A DNA stretch of 40,102 nucleotides from Conexivisphaerales archaeon. GTDB lineage: Archaea > Thermoproteota > Nitrososphaeria > Conexivisphaerales > UBA164. The notes below the pieces were generated by a model. That model saw only the letters and a program-made list of their open reading frames with translations, was not told the origin of the DNA and made no database searches. The position numbers and the translations under genes were made by a program. Numbering within the stretch: position 1 is the stretch's first letter; the number at the start of each line of letters is the position of its first letter. Below are positions 1,179 to 13,321 of the stretch, in pieces. Location of the stretch: the NCBI GenBank assembly GCA_030756715.1, contig JAVBJD010000007.1, forward strand, positions 1 through 40,102. Reading direction: 5' to 3'.

Positions 1179-3665
1179 ATGATAGAGTATGTTATAAAGA
1201 GGGATGGTAGAACCGCAAAGTTCGATAAGAATAAGATAGTTGAGGCTATATGGAAAGCTGAAAAAGCTGTTGGTATATTTGACAGGAAAATAGCAGAAGA
1301 AGTCGCAGATGCGGTAGTTCAGGAGCTTGAGGCTAGAGGTGGCACTCCTCATGTTGAAGAGATCCAGGATATAGTTGAAAAGAAACTCATAGAAAAAAAT
1401 CAGGCAAAGATCGCCAAGGCTTATATATTATATAGGCAAAAGAGAGCGGAAATAAGAGAGGAAAAGAAGAAGATACTGGGCAAAGACGTAATTGATGAAG
1501 TTGATAAAGCTTTTGACCTGAACGCTCTGAGAGTTCTTGCAAGCAGGTACCTCAAAAAAGACGAGAACGGCAAAATAATAGAAAGCCCAAAGCAAATGTT
1601 TACGAGAGTCGCCATTCACGTTGGTTTGCCAGAGGTACTTTATGACCCGCGCGTTTATTCTAAAGAGTGCGTCCAGCCAAATGAAAATGAGCCTCTAGAC
1701 GAGAACGTGCAAATCAAAATAGGTAATTACGAACTTAACGTTTTCCATAAGAGAGGCCTGAAGGAGCTTTACGATAAGCTAAACGCAGAGGGACACATCA
1801 AGGTAAAGTGGAGCGATCTTATAAAAATGATGAACAACGGCGAATTTAAGAACGTCGAAGAATTAATCGACCGTTACTATGATCTGATGGTTTCTAAAAA
1901 GTTCATACCCAACACGCCTGCTCTAATAAATTTTGGCTCGCATTATGGAATGGGATCTGCGTGCTTTGTCCTTGGTATTGAAGATTCTTTAGAGAGTATA
2001 ATGGACACTTTAAAACAGGCAGCTCTCATATTCCAGGCTGGAGGAGGGGTAGGTTATAATTTCAGCAAGTTAAGACCAGAAGGTGACGTTGTAAGATCCA
2101 CTGGCGGCGTAGCAAGCGGTCCTATCAGCTTTATGAAACTATTTGACTTCATGACAGAGATAATAAAGCAAGGGGGTGTTAGGCGTGGCGCCAACATGGG
2201 AATTTTGAACATAAACCACCCTGACATTCTCAAATTCATAACGGCTAAAAAGGGTAACCAGCAGCTAAGGAATTTTAACATCTCAGTCCTCATATTTCCC
2301 GAGTTCTGGGATGCATTTAATCAGGGCAAAAAATATCCGCTTGTTAATCCGAGGAACAACAAAGTTGTTGGAGAAATCGACCCGCTGCAGGTATTAGACT
2401 TGATAGCTTACCAGGCTTGGGAAAGCGCAGAGCCAGGGGTTATTTATTTTGATAACGTTAACAGGTACAACCCACTGCTCGAGGCGCTTGGTCCTATAAC
2501 ATCTACAAATCCTTGCGGAGAAGTTTTGCTTTATGAAAATGAATCATGTAACTTGGGTAGCCTTAACGTTTGGGCTTTTGTACGGGAAAAAGAAGATGGC
2601 AGCGTTGAGTATGATTGGGAAGGGCTTAAAGAAACCGTTATGCTGGCCACCAGGTTCCTTGACAACGTCATAGAGATAAACAAATACCCGTTAAAAAGTA
2701 TAGAAGAAATGACAAAGAAGACGCGAAAAGTTGGTCTGGGTGTCATGGGAGTGGCAGACCTTCTCTTTGAACTGAAACTGCCTTATGACAGCGATGAAGG
2801 AAGGACATTTATGGAAAGACTAATGGAGTTCATAAACTATTATTCAAAGGTTCAATCCGTCGAGCTCTCAAAGGAAAGGGGTCCCTTCCCGCTTTTTGAG
2901 CAGAGCAGGTACGCAAAGGGAGAACTGCCGTTTTCAGGATTCTATGACAGGTCATCATGGCATCTTGACTGGCAGACTCTTGCAGAAGATATAAAAAAGA
3001 ACGGGATAAGGAACGCGTATACTACAGTTATAGCTCCTACGGGTAGCATATCGATGATAGCGGGGACCAGCAGCGGGATAGAGCCCGTTTTTGCTCTTGT
3101 GTACGAAAAAGATGTAACTGTAGGAACTTTTGAATACATAGACCCAGTTTTCGAAAAGGTTATGAGGAAACTAGGCATACTGGATTCAGAGCTGCTCAGG
3201 GATGTAGTCTCAAGAGGGGGCAAACTTACAGGTATAAACTATATACCTGAAGACATAAAGAGGGTCTTTGTGACGGCTTTGGAAATCACCCCAGAAGATC
3301 ACATAAAGGCTTTAGCTTCTTTCCAGAAATGGGTAGACAGCTCTATCTCCAAAACAATAAACATGCCTTCTTATATAACCCCAGAAGAAGTAAGGCAGCT
3401 AATAATTATGGCGCATGAAATGGGCGTAAAAGACTTAACTGTATACAGGGACAAATCGCTCCAGGTTCAGGTTCTGAAAGCTCCTGAAGAAAAAGAGAAA
3501 AAAGGAGAAAAAACAACGCCTAGAGTGCAGGTAACTACTGTGATCAGCGGTTCAGGCGCTTCCAGTGAGATGGAGACTTGCCCAGTATGTGGATCTAAGC
3601 TTGTTTTCAAGGAAGGATGTGCAACATGCCCAGTCTGCGGCTGGAGTGCATGCGCTTCGTCATAA
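1179..3665 (+). CDS. nrdJ: Adenosylcobalamin-dependent (class II) ribonucleotide reductase
   Basis: This 828-residue enzyme reduces ribonucleotides to deoxyribonucleotides for DNA synthesis. An N-terminal ATP-cone (about 1-95, beginning IEYVIKRDGR) should provide allosteric control. The catalytic barrel carries the radical-site motif NPCGE (N444, C446, E448) and an upstream redox-type cysteine in SACF (C262). The C-terminus ends with two Cys pairs (CPVCG and CPVCGWSAC), the tail expected in class II NrdJ for re-reduction or zinc binding. No class I NrdB partner or class III glycyl-radical tail is present, which supports B12 dependence. The length is normal and no intein interrupts it. It converges on DUF2070 with only 2 nt between stop codons. 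Confidence 0.96.
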   Translation: MIEYVIKRDGRTAKFDKNKIVEAIWKAEKAVGIFDRKIAEEVADAVVQELEARGGTPHVEEIQDIVEKKLIEKNQAKIAKAYILYRQKRAEIREEKKKILGKDVIDEVDKAFDLNALRVLASRYLKKDENGKIIESPKQMFTRVAIHVGLPEVLYDPRVYSKECVQPNENEPLDENVQIKIGNYELNVFHKRGLKELYDKLNAEGHIKVKWSDLIKMMNNGEFKNVEELIDRYYDLMVSKKFIPNTPALINFGSHYGMGSACFVLGIEDSLESIMDTLKQAALIFQAGGGVGYNFSKLRPEGDVVRSTGGVASGPISFMKLFDFMTEIIKQGGVRRGANMGILNINHPDILKFITAKKGNQQLRNFNISVLIFPEFWDAFNQGKKYPLVNPRNNKVVGEIDPLQVLDLIAYQAWESAEPGVIYFDNVNRYNPLLEALGPITSTNPCGEVLLYENESCNLGSLNVWAFVREKEDGSVEYDWEGLKETVMLATRFLDNVIEINKYPLKSIEEMTKKTRKVGLGVMGVADLLFELKLPYDSDEGRTFMERLMEFINYYSKVQSVELSKERGPFPLFEQSRYAKGELPFSGFYDRSSWHLDWQTLAEDIKKNGIRNAYTTVIAPTGSISMIAGTSSGIEPVFALVYEKDVTVGTFEYIDPVFEKVMRKLGILDSELLRDVVSRGGKLTGINYIPEDIKRVFVTALEITPEDHIKALASFQKWVDSSISKTINMPSYITPEEVRQLIIMAHEMGVKDLTVYRDKSLQVQVLKAPEEKEKKGEKTTPRVQVTTVISGSGASSEMETCPVCGSKLVFKEGCATCPVCGWSACASS

Positions 3666-8147: not shown

Positions 8148-8210
8148 TTTTACAGAATAACAATAATCTGTTCGCGAAAAAGCATGACGATTTTTTGAAG
8201 CTATTTAAAA

Positions 8211-8220
8211 TTTATATAAA
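8211..8220 (+). promoter_or_regulatory. TATA box of the proteasome-exosome operon
   Basis: TTTATATAAA predicts a transcript start near 8240. That leaves a leader of about 27 nt holding a Shine-Dalgarno AGGTGA at about 8254-8260, just ahead of the psmA ATG (8267). This operon is therefore probably leadered. Confidence 0.55.
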
Positions 8221-8266
8221 AAATTTTAAAAAGCCCAGAATTTATTATAGTGTTAGGTGAATTTTG

Positions 8267-8998
8267 ATGTTCGCACCATCTGCGGGATATGATAGAGCAT
8301 TAACGATATTCTCACCTGATGGTAGGTTGTATCAGGTTGAATATGCTATTGAAACAGTGAGAAGGGGCACGATTGCTGTGGGGATTAAGGTTGATAATGG
8401 AGTTGTGCTTGCTGTAGAAGAGAGAGTAAAAAAGCTTCAAAACCCAAGGTTAAGTCAAAAAATATTTCAGGTTGATGACCATATAATGATAGCAGCAGCA
8501 GGTTATGTACCTGATGCCAGGGTTCTTGTAGATAACGCAAGGACTTTGGCTCAAAACAACAGGTTGATATACGATGAACCGATTGAAGTAGAAACAGTAG
8601 CAAGAGCTTTGGGTGATTTGGCGCAGCAATATACACAGTACGCTGGGGTGAGGCCGTTCGGCGTTTCTCTTATAATTGCGGGCATCGACAAAGAATCCCC
8701 ATCTCTTTACACTACTGATCCAAGCGGAACATATTTGGAGTACGACGCAGTTGCTATAGGGGGTGGAAGCGATACTGCAAACGAATACTTAGAACAGAGC
8801 TATAAAGAAGATTTAAGTCTGGATGACGCGATAGATCTTGCTTTAAAGTGTATATTAAGGGTAAATGAAGGAAAAGTGGATCCAACTAACCTTAAAGTTG
8901 CTTATATAAACAAAGAAGAAAAAATAATGAAGACGCTCCCTGCCCAGGAGATAGCTGAACGGGTTTCTAAACTTTCTAAAGAATTTCAAAGTAAGTAA
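8267..8998 (+). CDS. psmA: 20S proteasome alpha subunit
   Basis: The 243-residue product has the proteasome alpha signature at its N-terminus: the YDRALTIFSPDGRLYQVEYA block (residues 8-27) followed by VRRGTIAVG. Alpha subunits form the outer heptameric rings of the 20S core, gate substrate entry and dock PAN or Cdc48 ATPases. An in-frame TTG 3 nt earlier (8264) is rejected because the Shine-Dalgarno AGGTGA is better spaced for ATG 8267. It is the first gene of a packed operon. The SBDS start lies 2 nt after its stop, linking protein degradation with ribosome maturation and RNA decay. The catalytic beta subunit is not in this window. Confidence 0.97.
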   Translation: MFAPSAGYDRALTIFSPDGRLYQVEYAIETVRRGTIAVGIKVDNGVVLAVEERVKKLQNPRLSQKIFQVDDHIMIAAAGYVPDARVLVDNARTLAQNNRLIYDEPIEVETVARALGDLAQQYTQYAGVRPFGVSLIIAGIDKESPSLYTTDPSGTYLEYDAVAIGGGSDTANEYLEQSYKEDLSLDDAIDLALKCILRVNEGKVDPTNLKVAYINKEEKIMKTLPAQEIAERVSKLSKEFQSK

Positions 8999-9000
8999 AA

Positions 9001-9690
9001 ATGTCAACTAAAACTGCCGTTATAAAGTACGTTAAAGGTTCAGATAAATTTGAAATTGTAGTGTATGCAGATGCCGCATTTGATTACAGGCAGAACAAGG
9101 TTAAGGATCTTGATAAAGTCCTTGTTATAGATGAGGTCTTTACAGACTCATCTAAAGGACAGAGAGCTCCAAGAGATAAATTAAAAAAAGCCTTTGGAAC
9201 GGAAGACATAAGAGAAATAGAAAAAGAAATTCTAACAAAAGGCGAGCTTCCTCTTACAACTGATCAAAGAAGAAAGCTAATAGAAGATAAAAAGAAGCAA
9301 ATAGTGACGATCATATCAAAAAGTTATGTTGATCCTAAGACAAATCTGCCTCATCCTGTGATAAGGATAGAAAAGGCGATGGAGATGGCGGGTATTTCTG
9401 TAGACCCTATGAAGCCAGCTGAAGAACAGGCTAAACTGGTAGTTGAAAAGATCAGGCCTTATTTAGCTCTAAAAACAGGCAGCATAACTCTGAGCTTTAA
9501 AATACCGGCTAAGTACGCATACCAAGTAATAAAGGTCCTTAAGGAATACGGCGAAGTAAAGCAGGAAAACTGGGAAAGCGATGGAAGCTTAAGCGGGTTG
9601 ATAGTCATACCGATAGCCACTCAGGCAGCTTTTTTAGATAGAATAGCTTCGTTAACTCACGGGGAAGGGTTGATAAAGCTAATTGAGTAA
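9001..9690 (+). CDS. Ribosome assembly factor SBDS (Sdo1)
   Basis: This 229-residue protein is the archaeal Shwachman-Bodian-Diamond syndrome orthologue. It has the N-terminal FYSH domain (about 1-90, including FEIVVYADAAFDYRQ and VFTDSSKGQRA), a central helical domain (about 95-165) and a ferredoxin-like C-terminal domain ending in a GEGLIKLIE tail. In eukaryotes SBDS with EFL1 releases the anti-association factor eIF6/Tif6 from the large subunit; the archaeal protein is expected to act in late 50S maturation. It begins 2 nt after psmA and overlaps rrp4 by 8 nt, the conserved archaeal arrangement. Confidence 0.96.
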   Translation: MSTKTAVIKYVKGSDKFEIVVYADAAFDYRQNKVKDLDKVLVIDEVFTDSSKGQRAPRDKLKKAFGTEDIREIEKEILTKGELPLTTDQRRKLIEDKKKQIVTIISKSYVDPKTNLPHPVIRIEKAMEMAGISVDPMKPAEEQAKLVVEKIRPYLALKTGSITLSFKIPAKYAYQVIKVLKEYGEVKQENWESDGSLSGLIVIPIATQAAFLDRIASLTHGEGLIKLIE

Positions 9691-10354
9691 GCTAGTTGTA
9701 CCGGGCGAAGTTGTTGCAAAGGGAAATTTTAGGTCTTGGAGCAATGTACTTAAAAAAGGTGAAGAATACCTTTCAATATTCGTCGGCAAAGCAGAAGTGG
9801 GAGGAGGCAGGGTAAGAGTAGTCAGGCTTTCCGGCCCCTACATACCTAAAGTAGGAGATTTTGTAATAGGTATGGTCACTGACGTTCAACCGCTTGCAGC
9901 AACCATTGATATAAATTCTTATGTTAACGGCTATATCATGGCAAACGCGTTCTTCAAGAGAAGAATAGACCCTTCAAGGTTTGACCTTTCAAAAAAGGTC
10001 AATCTCGGGGATCTTATAGCTGCAAAGGTTCAGAGAATAGAAAGGGGAAAGGACGTTTACCTTCAACCAGATCAGAAGTGGAAGGTTGAAGGTGATGCAG
10101 TTTTTTACATTTCGCCAGCAAAAGCTCATTACATATACACAAGCAGGAGCAGGATATCAAGCAAAATAAAAGAACTAACGGGCGCAGAAATTAGACTTGG
10201 TGCAAACGGAGTTGTAGTTGTAAAGGGAGATTTAAAGAAGATAGAAATGGTTAAAAGAGCCCTAGACGTGGTAGAATCGAAGTACGATTTAAATGGTTTG
10301 TATAATGAAATAATAAAGGTGTTGAGTAAAGATGGAGAATCCACTGATAGTTAA
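9683..10354 (+). CDS. rrp4: Exosome RNA-binding cap subunit Rrp4
   Basis: This 223-residue protein caps the archaeal exosome ring and feeds RNA to the Rrp41/Rrp42 hexamer. It has an N-terminal strand domain (VVPGEVVAKGNF), an S1 domain (about 55-130, PKVGDFVIGMVTDVQP) and a KH-type domain (about 140-205) with GANGVVVVKGDLKKIE. The start is a TTG inside the last codons of SBDS (8-nt overlap), so translation is probably coupled. It overlaps rrp41 by 23 nt. The alternative cap subunit Csl4 is not encoded here. Confidence 0.95.
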   Translation: MSKLVVPGEVVAKGNFRSWSNVLKKGEEYLSIFVGKAEVGGGRVRVVRLSGPYIPKVGDFVIGMVTDVQPLAATIDINSYVNGYIMANAFFKRRIDPSRFDLSKKVNLGDLIAAKVQRIERGKDVYLQPDQKWKVEGDAVFYISPAKAHYIYTSRSRISSKIKELTGAEIRLGANGVVVVKGDLKKIEMVKRALDVVESKYDLNGLYNEIIKVLSKDGESTDS

Positions 10355-11054
10355 CGGTAAAAGGACTGACGGTAGAAGTCCTACTGAGCTCAGGCCTCTG
10401 AAGATAGATGTAGGAATAATAAAGAACGCTGCAGGTTCATCATACATAGAACACGGCAAGAACAAGATAATAGTAGCTATCTATGGTCCTAGAGATTCAC
10501 ACAGGTATGGCATGAACATTGAAAGAGCAACTCTGAGGTGCAGGTACCATATGTCACCATTTTCTACAGAGGAAAGGAAAAGTCCACAGCCTTCAAGAAG
10601 AGAGATAGAAATATCAAAAGTTATAAGGGACGCTTTAGAACCATCACTTATTCTCGAGAATTTTCCGAAAACCATGATCGATGTTTTTGTAGAAGTCCTT
10701 CAAAGCGATGGCGGAAGCAGGAGCGCCAGCATAACAGCCGCTTCAGTGGCTCTTGCTGATGCTGGCATACCAATGAAAGATCTGGTTGAAGCTGTTGCGG
10801 TTGGAAAGGTAGACGGTACGCTGGTGCTTGATCTTAATGATATAGAGGATAAGGAAGGCGAATCCGACATGCCTGTAGCCTTTATGCTCAACGAAAACAA
10901 AGTAACTTTGTTACAGATGGACGGAAAGATGACTGTTGAAGAATTTAAAGCTGGTTTGATGATGGCCATGGAAGCAGCTAAAAAAATAAAGGAGATACAA
11001 AAAGAAGCGCTAGCAAAAAAGTACTCTAAAGGTGATAGAAAAAATGATGCCTAG
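10332..11054 (+). CDS. rrp41: Exosome catalytic subunit Rrp41 (RNase PH-like)
   Basis: The 240-residue product is the catalytically active RNase PH-type subunit that degrades RNA 3'-5' with phosphate. Family segments include GKRTDGRSPTELRPL (9-23), SSYIEHGKNKIIVAIYGPR, the phosphate-binding region SDGGSRSASITAASVALADA, and the acidic cluster DIEDKEGESDMPVAF with D173 and D179 at the expected catalytic positions. It forms a trimer of heterodimers with Rrp42. The ATG lies inside the 3' end of rrp4 (23-nt overlap), and its own end overlaps the start of rrp42. Confidence 0.96.
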   Translation: MENPLIVNGKRTDGRSPTELRPLKIDVGIIKNAAGSSYIEHGKNKIIVAIYGPRDSHRYGMNIERATLRCRYHMSPFSTEERKSPQPSRREIEISKVIRDALEPSLILENFPKTMIDVFVEVLQSDGGSRSASITAASVALADAGIPMKDLVEAVAVGKVDGTLVLDLNDIEDKEGESDMPVAFMLNENKVTLLQMDGKMTVEEFKAGLMMAMEAAKKIKEIQKEALAKKYSKGDRKNDA

Positions 11055-11862
11055 AAAAAACCTCCTTGTAAGCGCTGTAAGAAAGGAACAGATATTAAAA
11101 ACGTTAGCGCAGGGTAAGAGGGTCGACGGTCGTGGGCTTCTTGATTACAGACCTCTCAGTATAACGCCAAATGTTATAGAAAAGGCTGAAGGTTCAGCCT
11201 TTGTAAAGCTCGGAGACACGCACGTAATAGCTGGTGTTAAGATGGGCGTTGGAACACCTTTCCCTGATACCCCTAATGAAGGCATTTTAATAGTAAACGC
11301 TGAGATACTTCCTACTGCAAGCGAGTATCAAGAACCTGGGCCTCCAGATGAAGATTCAATAGAGCTGGCAAGGGTTGTTGACAGAGGTATACGGGAAAGT
11401 AAGATGATAGACTTTTCAAAGCTGGTCATAGAACCGGGGAAACACGTATACACAGTTTACGTCGACATAAGCGTTATAGGAATGGACGGCAACCTTTTTG
11501 ACGCTTCCTCTTATGCTGCAGTTGTAGCGCTCATGACAACAAAGTATTACCCATTTATTAATCAAAATGGAAACCTTGTTAAGGGTTCAGAGAAGGTTCC
11601 TTTACCAATACAGGATTTGGGAATTTCTACTACATTTGCAAAGATCGATAGCTACATAATCGTGGACCCAACATGGGAAGAAGAAAGTATAATGGAGGCA
11701 AGGCTCACAATGGTTTACGATAAAAGCGGAAACATATGCGCTGTTCAGAAAGGAGGAAATGGAGGTTTGCTGTTAGATGATGTTCTGAAGATAGTAGATT
11801 TAGCAAAGTCTAAATCTGAGGAGATGAGGAAGGTATTGGAGGGAGTGATATCAAATGCCTAA
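11044..11862 (+). CDS. rrp42: Exosome non-catalytic subunit Rrp42
   Basis: Rrp42 is the inactive RNase PH-like partner that helps form the RNA-binding groove with Rrp41. Family features include GKRVDGRGLLDYRPLSI, the SAFVKLGDTHVIAGVKMG strand pair and VDISVIGMDGNLFDASSYAAV. The open frame reaches a GTG at 11032, but that codon lies within the Shine-Dalgarno AGGTGAT (11030-11036), so ATG 11044 (or the next codon, ATG 11047) is the likely start, giving 272 residues. It overlaps rrp41 by 11 nt and rpl37ae by 8 nt. Confidence 0.95.
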   Translation: MMPRKNLLVSAVRKEQILKTLAQGKRVDGRGLLDYRPLSITPNVIEKAEGSAFVKLGDTHVIAGVKMGVGTPFPDTPNEGILIVNAEILPTASEYQEPGPPDEDSIELARVVDRGIRESKMIDFSKLVIEPGKHVYTVYVDISVIGMDGNLFDASSYAAVVALMTTKYYPFINQNGNLVKGSEKVPLPIQDLGISTTFAKIDSYIIVDPTWEEESIMEARLTMVYDKSGNICAVQKGGNGGLLLDDVLKIVDLAKSKSEEMRKVLEGVISNA

Positions 11863-12049
11863 CCTTGGCGTTAAATACGGTTTAACCCTGAGGAGGAGAT
11901 ATTTATCAGTATGGAACAGGCTAAAGAAGAAAAGGGCTTGTCCTAAGTGCGGTTCGACCCATTTCAGGAGGCTTGTGATCGGAGTCTGGGAATGCGAAAA
12001 GTGCGGTTATAAAGTCGCAGGGGACGCCTACGACCTTGTCCAAGAATAA
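11855..12049 (+). CDS. rpl37ae: Large-subunit ribosomal protein eL43 (L37Ae)
   Basis: This 64-residue zinc-ribbon protein is the archaeal/eukaryotic ribosomal protein eL43. It has a basic N-terminus (YGLTLRRRY) and four zinc ligands, C29 and C32 in CPKCG and C47 and C50 in CEKCG, with the terminal GDAYDL segment. It is somewhat shorter than many family members at the N-terminus. The Shine-Dalgarno GGAGTGAT (11842-11849) supports the ATG. It overlaps rrp42 by 8 nt and pcc1 by 14 nt, the conserved order found in many archaea. Confidence 0.95.
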   Translation: MPNLGVKYGLTLRRRYLSVWNRLKKKRACPKCGSTHFRRLVIGVWECEKCGYKVAGDAYDLVQE

Positions 12050-12242
12050 AAGGGTAAACGTAATAATCTGGGTAAAAGGAGACAAAAGATCAATATATTC
12101 TTTGAAAAAAGCTGTTGATTCATCAGAAATAGAAGACGATAGTCTCGTAATTTCGTTCGATAGCGATGATATAGGGGACGCCCGAGCATTTATCAATTCG
12201 ACCCTTAGAGTTATAAATGCGTCTGTAAATAGCTTAATGTAA
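12036..12242 (+). CDS. pcc1: KEOPS complex subunit Pcc1
   Basis: The 68-residue product is a small dimerising subunit of KEOPS, which makes the t6A modification at A37 of ANN-decoding tRNAs, including the tRNA-Ile encoded just downstream. The sequence is short and low in motif content. Assignment rests on the pattern VNVIIWVKGDKRSIYSLKKA, DSLVISFDSDD and RAFINSTLRVINASVNS, plus its place between eL43 and prefoldin beta, which is conserved in archaea. Translation probably starts at a TTG within the end of rpl37ae. The prefoldin ATG follows immediately after its stop codon. Confidence 0.88.
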   Translation: MSKNKRVNVIIWVKGDKRSIYSLKKAVDSSEIEDDSLVISFDSDDIGDARAFINSTLRVINASVNSLM

Positions 12243-12614
12243 ATGAGCGAAAACGTTCCCGCGTGGTTGCAGGAAGAGTTAGCAAGGTACGATCAGCTTC
12301 AGCAAACCCTACAGGCAATTTTAGCACAGAAACAGCAAGTGGATCTGGAAATAGCAGAGCTTGACAGAGCTTTAGAAGAACTCCAGAAACAGTCAGATGA
12401 TGTGGAGGTTTATAAAGTCGCAGGAAGCATCATGATTAAGAGCAACAAAGCAGACCTTTTAAAAGAACTGCAAGAAAAGAAAGAGCTTGCCAATACAAGG
12501 AGAACGGTCCTGAGCAAGCAGGAAGAAAAAGTAAGGCAATCTTTGCAAGAAGTTCAGAACAAGCTGACACAAGCTTTAAGAGGGGGCTCTACCGGACAAC
12601 AAGTTGCTACTTGA
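12243..12614 (+). CDS. pfdB: Prefoldin beta subunit
   Basis: This 123-residue protein is predicted to form the beta-type prefoldin hairpin: an N-terminal helix (about 8-50, rich in Gln and Leu heptads), a short beta segment VYKVAGSIMIKSNK (55-68), and a second coiled-coil helix (about 70-115). Four beta subunits with two alpha subunits make a jellyfish-shaped chaperone that holds unfolded proteins for the thermosome. The ATG abuts the pcc1 stop codon. The gene is followed after one nucleotide by the tRNA-Ile gene. Confidence 0.95.
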   Translation: MSENVPAWLQEELARYDQLQQTLQAILAQKQQVDLEIAELDRALEELQKQSDDVEVYKVAGSIMIKSNKADLLKELQEKKELANTRRTVLSKQEEKVRQSLQEVQNKLTQALRGGSTGQQVAT

Positions 12615-12615
12615 T

Positions 12616-12690
12616 GGGCCGGTAGCTCAGCATGGTTAGAGCGTTCGGCTGATAACCGAAAGGTCGCCGGTTCAAATCCGGCCCGGCCCA
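12616..12690 (+). tRNA. tRNA-Ile (anticodon GAT)
   Basis: The 75-nt cloverleaf is complete: acceptor GGGCCGG/CCGGCCC with discriminator A, D stem GCTC/GAGC, anticodon stem TTCGG/CCGAA with loop CTGATAA (GAT at 12651-12653), and T stem GCCGG/CCGGC with loop TTCAAAT. There is no intron and CCA is not encoded. It begins one nucleotide after the prefoldin stop codon, and no TATA box is visible upstream, so it is probably excised from the operon transcript. Confidence 0.97.
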
Positions 12691-12708
12691 TCTCATAAAA
12701 ATAAACGA

Positions 12709-12723
12709 TTTTTATTTTATTTT
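12709..12723 (+). terminator. T-rich terminator after tRNA-Ile
   Basis: The T-rich run TTTTTATTTTATTTT follows the tRNA by about 19 nt. It resembles archaeal intrinsic terminators that need only U-tracts. Confidence 0.45.
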
Positions 12724-12730
12724 AAAAAGT

Positions 12731-12740
12731 ATTTATATAT
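12731..12740 (+). promoter_or_regulatory. TATA box of the TBP gene
   Basis: ATTTATATAT is centred about 28 nt before the TBP ATG (12764). A second AT-rich element, TAAATATATAAT, lies just before the start codon and could allow TBP to regulate its own gene; that is speculation. Confidence 0.5.
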
Positions 12741-12763: not shown

Positions 12764-13321
12764 ATGCCTAAAACTATAGCGTCGATAAGTATTGAAAATG
12801 TAGTTACGTCCGCTTCTGTAAATCAATCAATAGATCTTATAACTATTACGAGGTTGTTTCCTGATGTAGAATACCATCCGGAACAGTTCCCGGGTCTTGT
12901 GTTCAGGCTGAAATCTCCAAAAACAGCTACACTGATATTCAGTTCAGGCAAAATGGTCTGTACGGGGGCTAAAAGCGAAGCGCAGGCAAGAAAGGCCGTT
13001 GAAACTGTGGTTCAAAAGCTAAGAAAAGCTGGCATTGACATAAAAAATGAACCAATAATAGAGATACAGAACATAGTAGCCTCTGCGTCTTTGGGCGGAA
13101 AGATAAACCTTGAAAAAGCAGCTGAAATATTGGAACATACGATGTATGAACCGGAACAGTTCCCTGGTTTGATTTACAGGATGGACGATCCTAAAACAGT
13201 CATTCTTCTATTTGCAAGCGGAAAATTGGTTTGCACTGGCGCAAAAAAAGAAGAAGAAGTTTACCGCGCAGTAGAAAAGTTGCATGAACTGCTTGAAGAA
13301 AAAGGCTTAATGACGTACTGA
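12764..13321 (+). CDS. tbp: TATA-box-binding protein
   Basis: The 185-residue protein is the general transcription factor that binds TATA boxes and nucleates the preinitiation complex with TFB. The saddle made of two direct repeats is clear: repeat 1 (about 5-90) contains EQFPGLVFRLKSP and SSGKMVCTGAKSE, and repeat 2 (about 96-181) contains EQFPGLIYRMDDP and ASGKLVCTGAKKE. Both repeats start with an IENIVASA-type strand. The length is standard for archaeal TBP. It appears monocistronic. Confidence 0.98.
   Translation: MPKTIASISIENVVTSASVNQSIDLITITRLFPDVEYHPEQFPGLVFRLKSPKTATLIFSSGKMVCTGAKSEAQARKAVETVVQKLRKAGIDIKNEPIIEIQNIVASASLGGKINLEKAAEILEHTMYEPEQFPGLIYRMDDPKTVILLFASGKLVCTGAKKEEEVYRAVEKLHELLEEKGLMTY

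Follow-up and report, generated by a model that had tools for sequence, protein, structure and literature searches.

Introduction

In a genome of the archaeal order Conexivisphaerales, a tRNA-Ile gene begins one nucleotide downstream of the stop codon of a prefoldin beta gene. The preceding genes form a compact cluster that encodes, among others, proteasome and exosome subunits. This arrangement raises the question of how the tRNA is made, i.e., whether it is transcribed from a promoter of its own or is cut out of the transcript of the protein genes. In this study, we analyzed the locus, its counterparts in related genomes and other tRNA genes that lie directly behind protein genes.

Genomes and definitions

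The window, i.e., the whole stretch of 40,102 nt that was analyzed, is contig C54 of an assembly (G000) of 1.26 Mb in 138 contigs that is 91% complete. Genomes G000-G010 constitute one family, f1, with genera g1-g4 (G007 represents g4); G012 belongs to the same order and G022 to the same class.

A 14-base BRE/TATA model was trained on the 70 nt 5' of each of the 37 tRNA genes of G000, with leave-one-out scoring. Motifs were allowed to start at -43 to -28, and random stretches from the same loci served as the null, for which the 5% level was 5.3 bits. A tRNA was considered attached if a gene of at least 100 aa on the same strand had a stop codon that ended between 12 nt before the tRNA and 30 nt inside it. 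ORFs were called by a greedy longest-ORF rule with a 60-aa cut; Val-gac, which follows the gene for L40e (59 aa), was added by hand. G012 and G022 each gave one tRNA match below threshold, which was excluded.

Results

Structure of the locus

All features described in this section are on the forward strand. Two overlapping BRE/TATA-like elements at 8205-8231 (9.4 bits at 8205 and 8.6 bits at 8218 with the tRNA promoter model of the same genome) are a candidate operon promoter. They are followed by ORFs for the proteasome alpha subunit (8264-8998, called mechanically from a TTG, with an ATG at 8267; Pfam PF00227, 197 bits for 8270-8998), the SBDS protein (9001-9690, by Pfam) and exosome Rrp4 (9683-10354, overlapping the SBDS ORF; Pfam RRP4_S1, 29.6 bits). 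The next two ORFs encode RNase PH family proteins (both Pfam RNase_PH), which, from the gene order, are presumably exosome Rrp41 (10332-11054) and Rrp42 (11032-11862); the latter has a mechanical GTG start, and the real start may be a few codons inward. Ribosomal protein L37ae (11855-12049, by Pfam) and a Pcc1-like protein of KEOPS (12036-12242) precede prefoldin beta (pfdB, 12243-12614; Pfam Prefoldin_2, 65 bits). The Pcc1 match was borderline (20.5 bits, with a cut-off of 20.9), and the name is nevertheless likely because of the position of the ORF in the cluster.

The TGA of pfdB occupies 12612-12614. A spacer of one T (12615) separates it from the tRNA-Ile(GAU) gene at 12616-12690 (Rfam, 75.5 bits), as the original prediction had stated. 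The tRNA gene is intronless, and its CCA is not encoded. ARAGORN called it as tRNA-Ile(GAT) at 12615-12692, with the extra bases outside the acceptor stem. With mechanical starts, every junction of the eight genes and the tRNA, from 8998 to 12616, is an overlap or a gap of at most 2 nt. Downstream, a T-rich tract (TTTTTATTTTATTTT, 12709-12723) is a candidate intrinsic terminator of the operon; it is also present in G001, G003 and G004 and is absent after tRNA-Ile in two g2 genomes, G005 and G010. The tract is followed by a BRE/TATA-like element (12724-12737, 8.2 bits) of the gene for the TATA-binding protein (12764-13321; Pfam TBP, 213 bits), which is probably a separate downstream unit. A scan for sigma-70 promoters and hairpins gave counts at the level of shuffled sequence, and sigma-70 is in any case uninformative for an archaeon.

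Search for a promoter of the tRNA-Ile gene

In G000, 24 of the 37 tRNAs passed the 5% null level, and in 23 of these 24 the motif started at -35 to -41. The best score of tRNA-Ile was -5.0 bits (null p 0.78), compared with a 95% null quantile of 5.3; no TATA box was thus found in the 40 nt before the tRNA, as had been stated, and the scan from -43 to -28 contained no match for the BRE/TATA element that starts approximately 37 nt 5' of a standalone archaeal tRNA gene. This score places tRNA-Ile, tied with Val-gac, among the bottom three of the 37 and level with cluster-internal tRNAs that lie 3 nt 3' of another tRNA (Arg-cct, -4.0; Leu-tag, -6.3). In G007, tRNA-Ile was the lowest of 36 tRNAs (-13.5 bits). 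Outside the family, tRNA-Ile has the motif at -36 in both G012 (9.5 bits) and G022 (9.0 bits).

The 5% level was passed by 25/36 tRNAs in G007, 37/43 in G012 and 4/41 in G022. The last value indicates that in G022 the motif is weak or different and the model weak. The motif is therefore no sure mark of tRNA promoters, and its absence by itself proves little. In addition, a promoter that is degenerate or far away may be overlooked, given the constraints on base composition in coding sequence.

One explanation of the missing motif is that tRNA-Ile uses its own promoter within pfdB or Rrp42 and has a long leader, so that the junction is only a matter of gene packing. Motif matches do occur at 12450 in pfdB (7.8 bits, at a distance of 166 nt from the tRNA) and in Rrp42 at 11803, the four g1 genomes with the locus share an element that starts 212 bases upstream of where the pfdB stop codon ends, and two tRNAs elsewhere, described below, have a good motif inside an overlapping gene. 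However, the recurring element scored 4.1 bits in G000, 4.2 in G001, 4.2 in G003 and 8.6 in G004; it is therefore under the 5% level in three of the four, and it falls on codons for Val-Tyr-Lys that are common to the g1 proteins. Nor is the 12450 element kept: the aligned site in G001 scored 1.4 bits, and it was outside the three best matches in G003, G004, G006 and G007. The coding part of the operon has 8 matches of at least 6 bits in 4338 positions (approximately 0.18%), which is below the window-wide 0.26%. These data, together with the absence of the motif from its usual place in G000 and G007, make a separate internal promoter an unlikely source of the tRNA.

The match in Rrp42 (11803-11816) is a very strong BRE/TATA-like element, with 11.4 bits, and possibly represents an internal promoter for L37ae-Pcc1-PfdB-tRNA.

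A mixed arrangement, in which a basal internal or standalone start is combined with read-through from the operon and the operon yields only part of the tRNA, is conceivable, if doubtful. Internal start sites are common in archaea, and a backup start would be useful since Ile-gat is the sole tRNA so named among those found in the 91% complete G000 assembly. On the other hand, no strong promoter-like element was found at a conserved position of pfdB across the family.

Conservation of the pfdB/tRNA-Ile junction

We searched 61 genomes for PfdB and obtained matches in 59, of which 30 loci (10 in family f1 and 20 outside it) were examined. tRNA-Ile was directly 3' of pfdB in all 10 family loci and in none of the 20 others; the comparison of related genomes that had been proposed as a check thus shows a junction kept within the family, and the adjacency exceeds chance. 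The eleventh family genome, G002, lacks a pfdB locus in this set because its best match was only 24% identical. One locus outside the family (L044) had a tRNA call after pfdB that is implausible, with an intron of 1.3 kb. pfdB and the tRNA are separated by 1 nt in the four g1 genomes with the locus, by 4 nt in the three genomes of g3 and g4, and by 23 nt in the three of g2.

Among 80 named public loci, six carry the junction; these are family genomes that had already been counted and therefore provide no independent evidence. The remaining 74 include one implausible tRNA call (L081) and one gene that runs off its contig (L090).

The tRNA-Ile genes behind pfdB differ in intron content. Those of the two g3 genomes, G006 and G009 (L035, L037), have a 24-nt intron within the anticodon stem, and those of the g2 genomes G008, G005 and G010 (L040-L042) have a 29-nt intron at the identical place; the g1 and g4 copies are intronless. 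ARAGORN called the gene in the three g2 genomes as tRNA-Ala(GGC). This call was rejected: removal of the 29-nt insert leaves a 75-nt tRNA-Ile(GAU) sequence. In the minimum fold of the spliced tRNA, the canonical anticodon stem is present in g3 and absent from the g2 form that was folded.

Attached tRNAs in the family

The full comparison covered two genomes of the family and two from outside it. Attached tRNAs numbered 8/37 in G000 and 6/36 in G007, compared with 0/43 in G012 and 0/41 in G022 (pooled, 14/73 vs 0/84; Fisher p 1.1e-5). When genes down to the 60-aa cut were allowed, with stop codons at -12 to +30, the counts were 8/37, 8/36, 2/43 and 0/41, respectively; the two G012 cases are ORFs of 65-66 aa with a motif match and are probably spurious. 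In G000, the attached tRNAs other than tRNA-Ile lie behind genes that encode, by Pfam, an IF-2B family protein, UDP-glucose dehydrogenase, an Mrr-like nuclease, PRPP synthetase, an amidohydrolase, an NAD-binding dehydrogenase and a PfkB kinase; L40e (59 aa) is added to these. The nine attached tRNAs are Ile, three Arg tRNAs reading CGN, two Pro, Ser-tga, Val-gac and Cys. The tRNA-Ile junction would thus be one instance of a family habit that places approximately one-sixth to one-fifth of tRNAs directly behind, or overlapping with, a protein gene.

Attachment goes along with loss of the promoter motif. In G000, 1 attached tRNA has the motif and 8 lack it, compared with 23 and 3, respectively, among the others, i.e., the 26 tRNAs with neither an abutting gene nor another tRNA in front of them (Fisher p 5.7e-5). 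One of these three, L068 (34 bits, no ARAGORN name), may be a partial tRNA. The corresponding numbers in G007 are 1 and 6 for attached tRNAs and 24 and 5 for the others (Fisher p 0.0014). Without the hand-added Val-gac, the p values are 3.4e-4 for G000 and 0.006 for G007. The attached tRNAs that retain a motif inside the overlapping gene are Pro-cgg in G000 and Arg-ccg in G007; overlap therefore does not guarantee co-transcription. In the former case, a PfkB-family gene overlaps the tRNA-Pro(CGG) gene (L027, 1460-1525) by 25 nt, with the motif in the gene at -41, and this tRNA apparently has retained its own promoter.

Sharing of an operon by Pcc1 and a KEOPS substrate could also be thought of as the basis of the pfdB/tRNA-Ile junction. 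The original prediction had remarked that Pcc1 of KEOPS, which acts on this class of tRNA, is encoded in the operon; the cluster indeed has a Pcc1-like ORF, and tRNA-Ile has A37 and belongs to the ANN codon box. However, t6A is made in tRNAs reading ANN codons generally, of which tRNA-Ile is one of many, and only Ile among the nine attached G000 tRNAs reads such codons. The other attached tRNAs follow unrelated genes, such as those for PRPP synthetase, ribosomal protein L40e and UDP-glucose dehydrogenase, and pfdB has no tRNA-Ile behind it in any of the 20 loci examined outside the family. We found no association beyond the neighborhood at this one junction, and functional coupling was rejected as very improbable.

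Two further observations concern other tRNA genes. At L005 (approximately 1573-1640, minus strand), a stretch common to G000 and G007 lies between the gene for aIF5A and a tRNA-Ala gene without the motif. The shared sequence is ATGGGCGG..CTGACC....GGGATGAAG, preceded by a TATA-like element; in G007 it precedes tRNA-Ala(CGC). The stretch is either an ORF of 24 aa that, in G000, ends in the UAG of the tRNA, or a small RNA to which the tRNA is joined. No credible sRNA family emerged from a low-threshold Rfam search in the vicinity of tRNA-Ala(TGC). In addition, G000 contigs C30, C98, C22 and C10 end within 1 nt of the end of a tRNA gene, perhaps because the assembly breaks at tRNAs common to strains.

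Other gene/tRNA junctions

We examined the loci of six other upstream genes (IF2B, 21 of 24; PRPP synthetase, 12 of 24; L40e, 16 of 24; UDP-glucose dehydrogenase, 17 of 24; Mrr-like, 9 of 15; amidohydrolase, 10 of 16). The omitted loci were mostly weak matches, fragments, paralogs, second copies or from genomes outside the family.

PRPP synthetase is followed by Pro-tgg in all six close family orthologs (fragments in G002 and G010 not counted), and the G of its TAG stop codon is always the first base of the tRNA; the only homolog in G007 is 40% identical and lacks the tRNA, and G001 and G003 gave no match. L40e is followed by Val-gac at 3-8 nt in all seven family loci in which the gene is complete; in G002 it is cut off by the contig end, and there was no match in the three g2 genomes. 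Arg-tcg follows IF2B in 10 of the 11 family loci. Seven of these range from an overlap of approximately 10 nt to a gap of 1 nt, and the three in g2 have gaps of 43-47 nt; the G007 homolog (41%) lacks the tRNA.

Behind UDP-glucose dehydrogenase, ARAGORN called Arg-gcg in 7 of 11 family loci. In G002 the start of the tRNA is visible and was left uncalled, and in the three g2 genomes the locus has no Arg-gcg. The stop codon coincides with U8-A9-G10 of the tRNA in g1, lies approximately 24 nt inside the tRNA in G007 and is 9 nt before it in g3 (G009 and G006, in the latter through an in-frame TGA). The Mrr-like gene precedes Arg-ccg in all eight family loci examined, with the stop codon inside the tRNA every time. 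The amidohydrolase gene has Ser-tga behind it in 6 of the 8 family loci examined; the two loci without it are from g2 genomes. In g3, the tRNA starts with the G that ends the stop codon.

Looser versions occur outside the family: L40e is followed by tRNA-Val at 18-93 nt in four genomes, and two genomes have tRNA-Arg 19-24 nt behind IF2B. Perhaps some older gene/tRNA neighborhoods became tighter in the family, and new ones were added.

Overall, the upstream stop codon is wholly or partly inside the tRNA for 4 of the 37 G000 tRNAs and twice is U8-A9-G10. It follows that a translatable mRNA and a tRNA could hardly both be obtained from one RNA at such a junction.

Discussion

The features of an operon-terminal tRNA, i.e., location on the same strand, a gap too short for a promoter (1 nt in G000) and a conserved junction, were all found at this locus. 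Judging from the sequences, tRNA-Ile in this family has probably become the terminal cistron of the operon with the proteasome, exosome and prefoldin genes and would be released from a single transcript by RNase P and RNase Z. The transcript would start before the proteasome gene, continue through pfdB and the tRNA and end in the T-rich tract at 12709-12723. A cut by RNase P before G12616 and one by RNase Z after A12690 would free the tRNA. The former would leave the end of the upstream mRNA one base past the UGA, at 12615, and would spare the stop codon. From the known size of the ribosome, a ribosome halted at the UGA would cover the 5' strand of the acceptor stem, so termination should compete with folding and cutting of the tRNA.

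The original prediction of co-transcription at the end of the operon thus receives good indirect support from the gapless cluster, the lack of a motif, the conserved junction, the T-rich tract and the presence of RNase P RNA, which was found in G000 with 209 bits. It was found in all eight family genomes outside g2, G000 included, and altogether in 17 of the 21 genomes searched; no match was obtained in the three g2 genomes (G005, G008 and G010, which are 73-82% complete) or in G013, a member of another family. Points against co-transcription are the internal motif matches, the lack of RNase P RNA matches in g2, the absence of a T-rich tract from G005 and G010 and the gap of 23 nt between pfdB and tRNA-Ile in g2. 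A leaderless tRNA, with transcription starting at G1 and no need for RNase P, as in Nanoarchaeum equitans, was considered and rejected because RNase P RNA is present and the motif is missing from the usual place.

The overlapping junctions suggest a broader model. The family might employ tRNA punctuation in an archaeal version, with each transcript of an overlapping junction giving either a translatable mRNA or a tRNA and never both, although we regard this general form as rather improbable. U8-A9-G10 of the tRNA doubles as the UAG stop codon of the genes for UDP-glucose dehydrogenase (with Arg-gcg, in g1) and the Mrr-like protein (with Arg-ccg, in g1 and g4). The first base of the tRNA serves as the last G of the stop codon of PRPP synthetase (with Pro-tgg) and at the Ser-tga junction in g3. 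At these junctions, cutting by RNase P would remove or truncate the stop codon, and tRNA maturation would compete with translation of the upstream gene. For Pro-tgg, an mRNA ending in UA could be restored to UAA by A-rich tailing, e.g., through the exosome that the tRNA-Ile operon encodes. Three arrangements are conceivable at the overlapping junctions: mRNA and tRNA derive from separate molecules, tailing restores the mRNA, or transcription of the tRNA begins at a start that escaped notice.

If tRNA-Ile is made from the operon transcript, the one tRNA-Ile(GAU) found in G000 comes from cutting of an mRNA, and the decoding of AUU and AUC is tied to expression of an operon with protein-quality and RNA-decay functions. 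Each genome has six to nine junctions, whose stop codons range from 11 nt upstream of the tRNA to 25 nt within it. If the model holds there as well, excision of the tRNA and translation of the upstream gene contest the same bases, and both the formation of archaeal mRNA 3' ends through excision of tRNAs and what becomes of mRNAs deprived of a stop codon are directly testable. Taken singly, the tRNA-Ile case is of modest interest; together, the junctions of the family are a useful and testable variant of the mRNA-tRNA co-transcription already known.

Comparison with known systems

The genes for proteasome alpha, SBDS, Rrp4, Rrp41, Rrp42, L37ae, Pcc1 and prefoldin beta correspond to the archaeal proteasome-exosome superoperon described by comparative genomics. 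Gene content and order are the same here, and the difference is the extra terminal tRNA-Ile cistron, which occurred only in family f1 among the loci examined. Our search of the literature on co-transcription or overlap of tRNAs with protein genes, mostly limited to papers available without subscription, did not find this arrangement. The concentration in one archaeal family, the tie to loss of the promoter motif and the stop codons lent by tRNAs seem to be new.

The location of tRNAs at the ends of protein operons is known in bacteria. In mitochondrial tRNA punctuation, excision of tRNAs by RNase P and RNase Z sets the ends of mRNAs, and stop codons can be incomplete until tailing. The family resembles mitochondria in that genes abut or share bases with tRNAs; it differs in that a minority of tRNAs is involved and in that the genome is that of a cellular archaeon in which most tRNAs have a promoter motif.

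Among archaea, a study of Thermococcus kodakarensis describes a tRNA-Lys in the 5' UTR of TK0306 that is an apparent co-transcript by RNA sequencing (PMC4247193). The likeness is that an archaeal tRNA is apparently co-transcribed with a protein mRNA. In that account, however, the tRNA lies ahead of the gene, in a leader of 159 nt, whereas here it lies one base after a stop codon, and sister cases overlap. For N. equitans, another report describes dicistronic tRNA-sRNA precursors, in which processing of the tRNA by RNase Z sets the end of the neighboring RNA, as well as merged precursors of tRNA and mRNA (PMC3491384). The neighbor in those dicistronic precursors is an sRNA, in an organism without RNase P; here, the neighbor is a protein gene, and RNase P RNA is present in G000.
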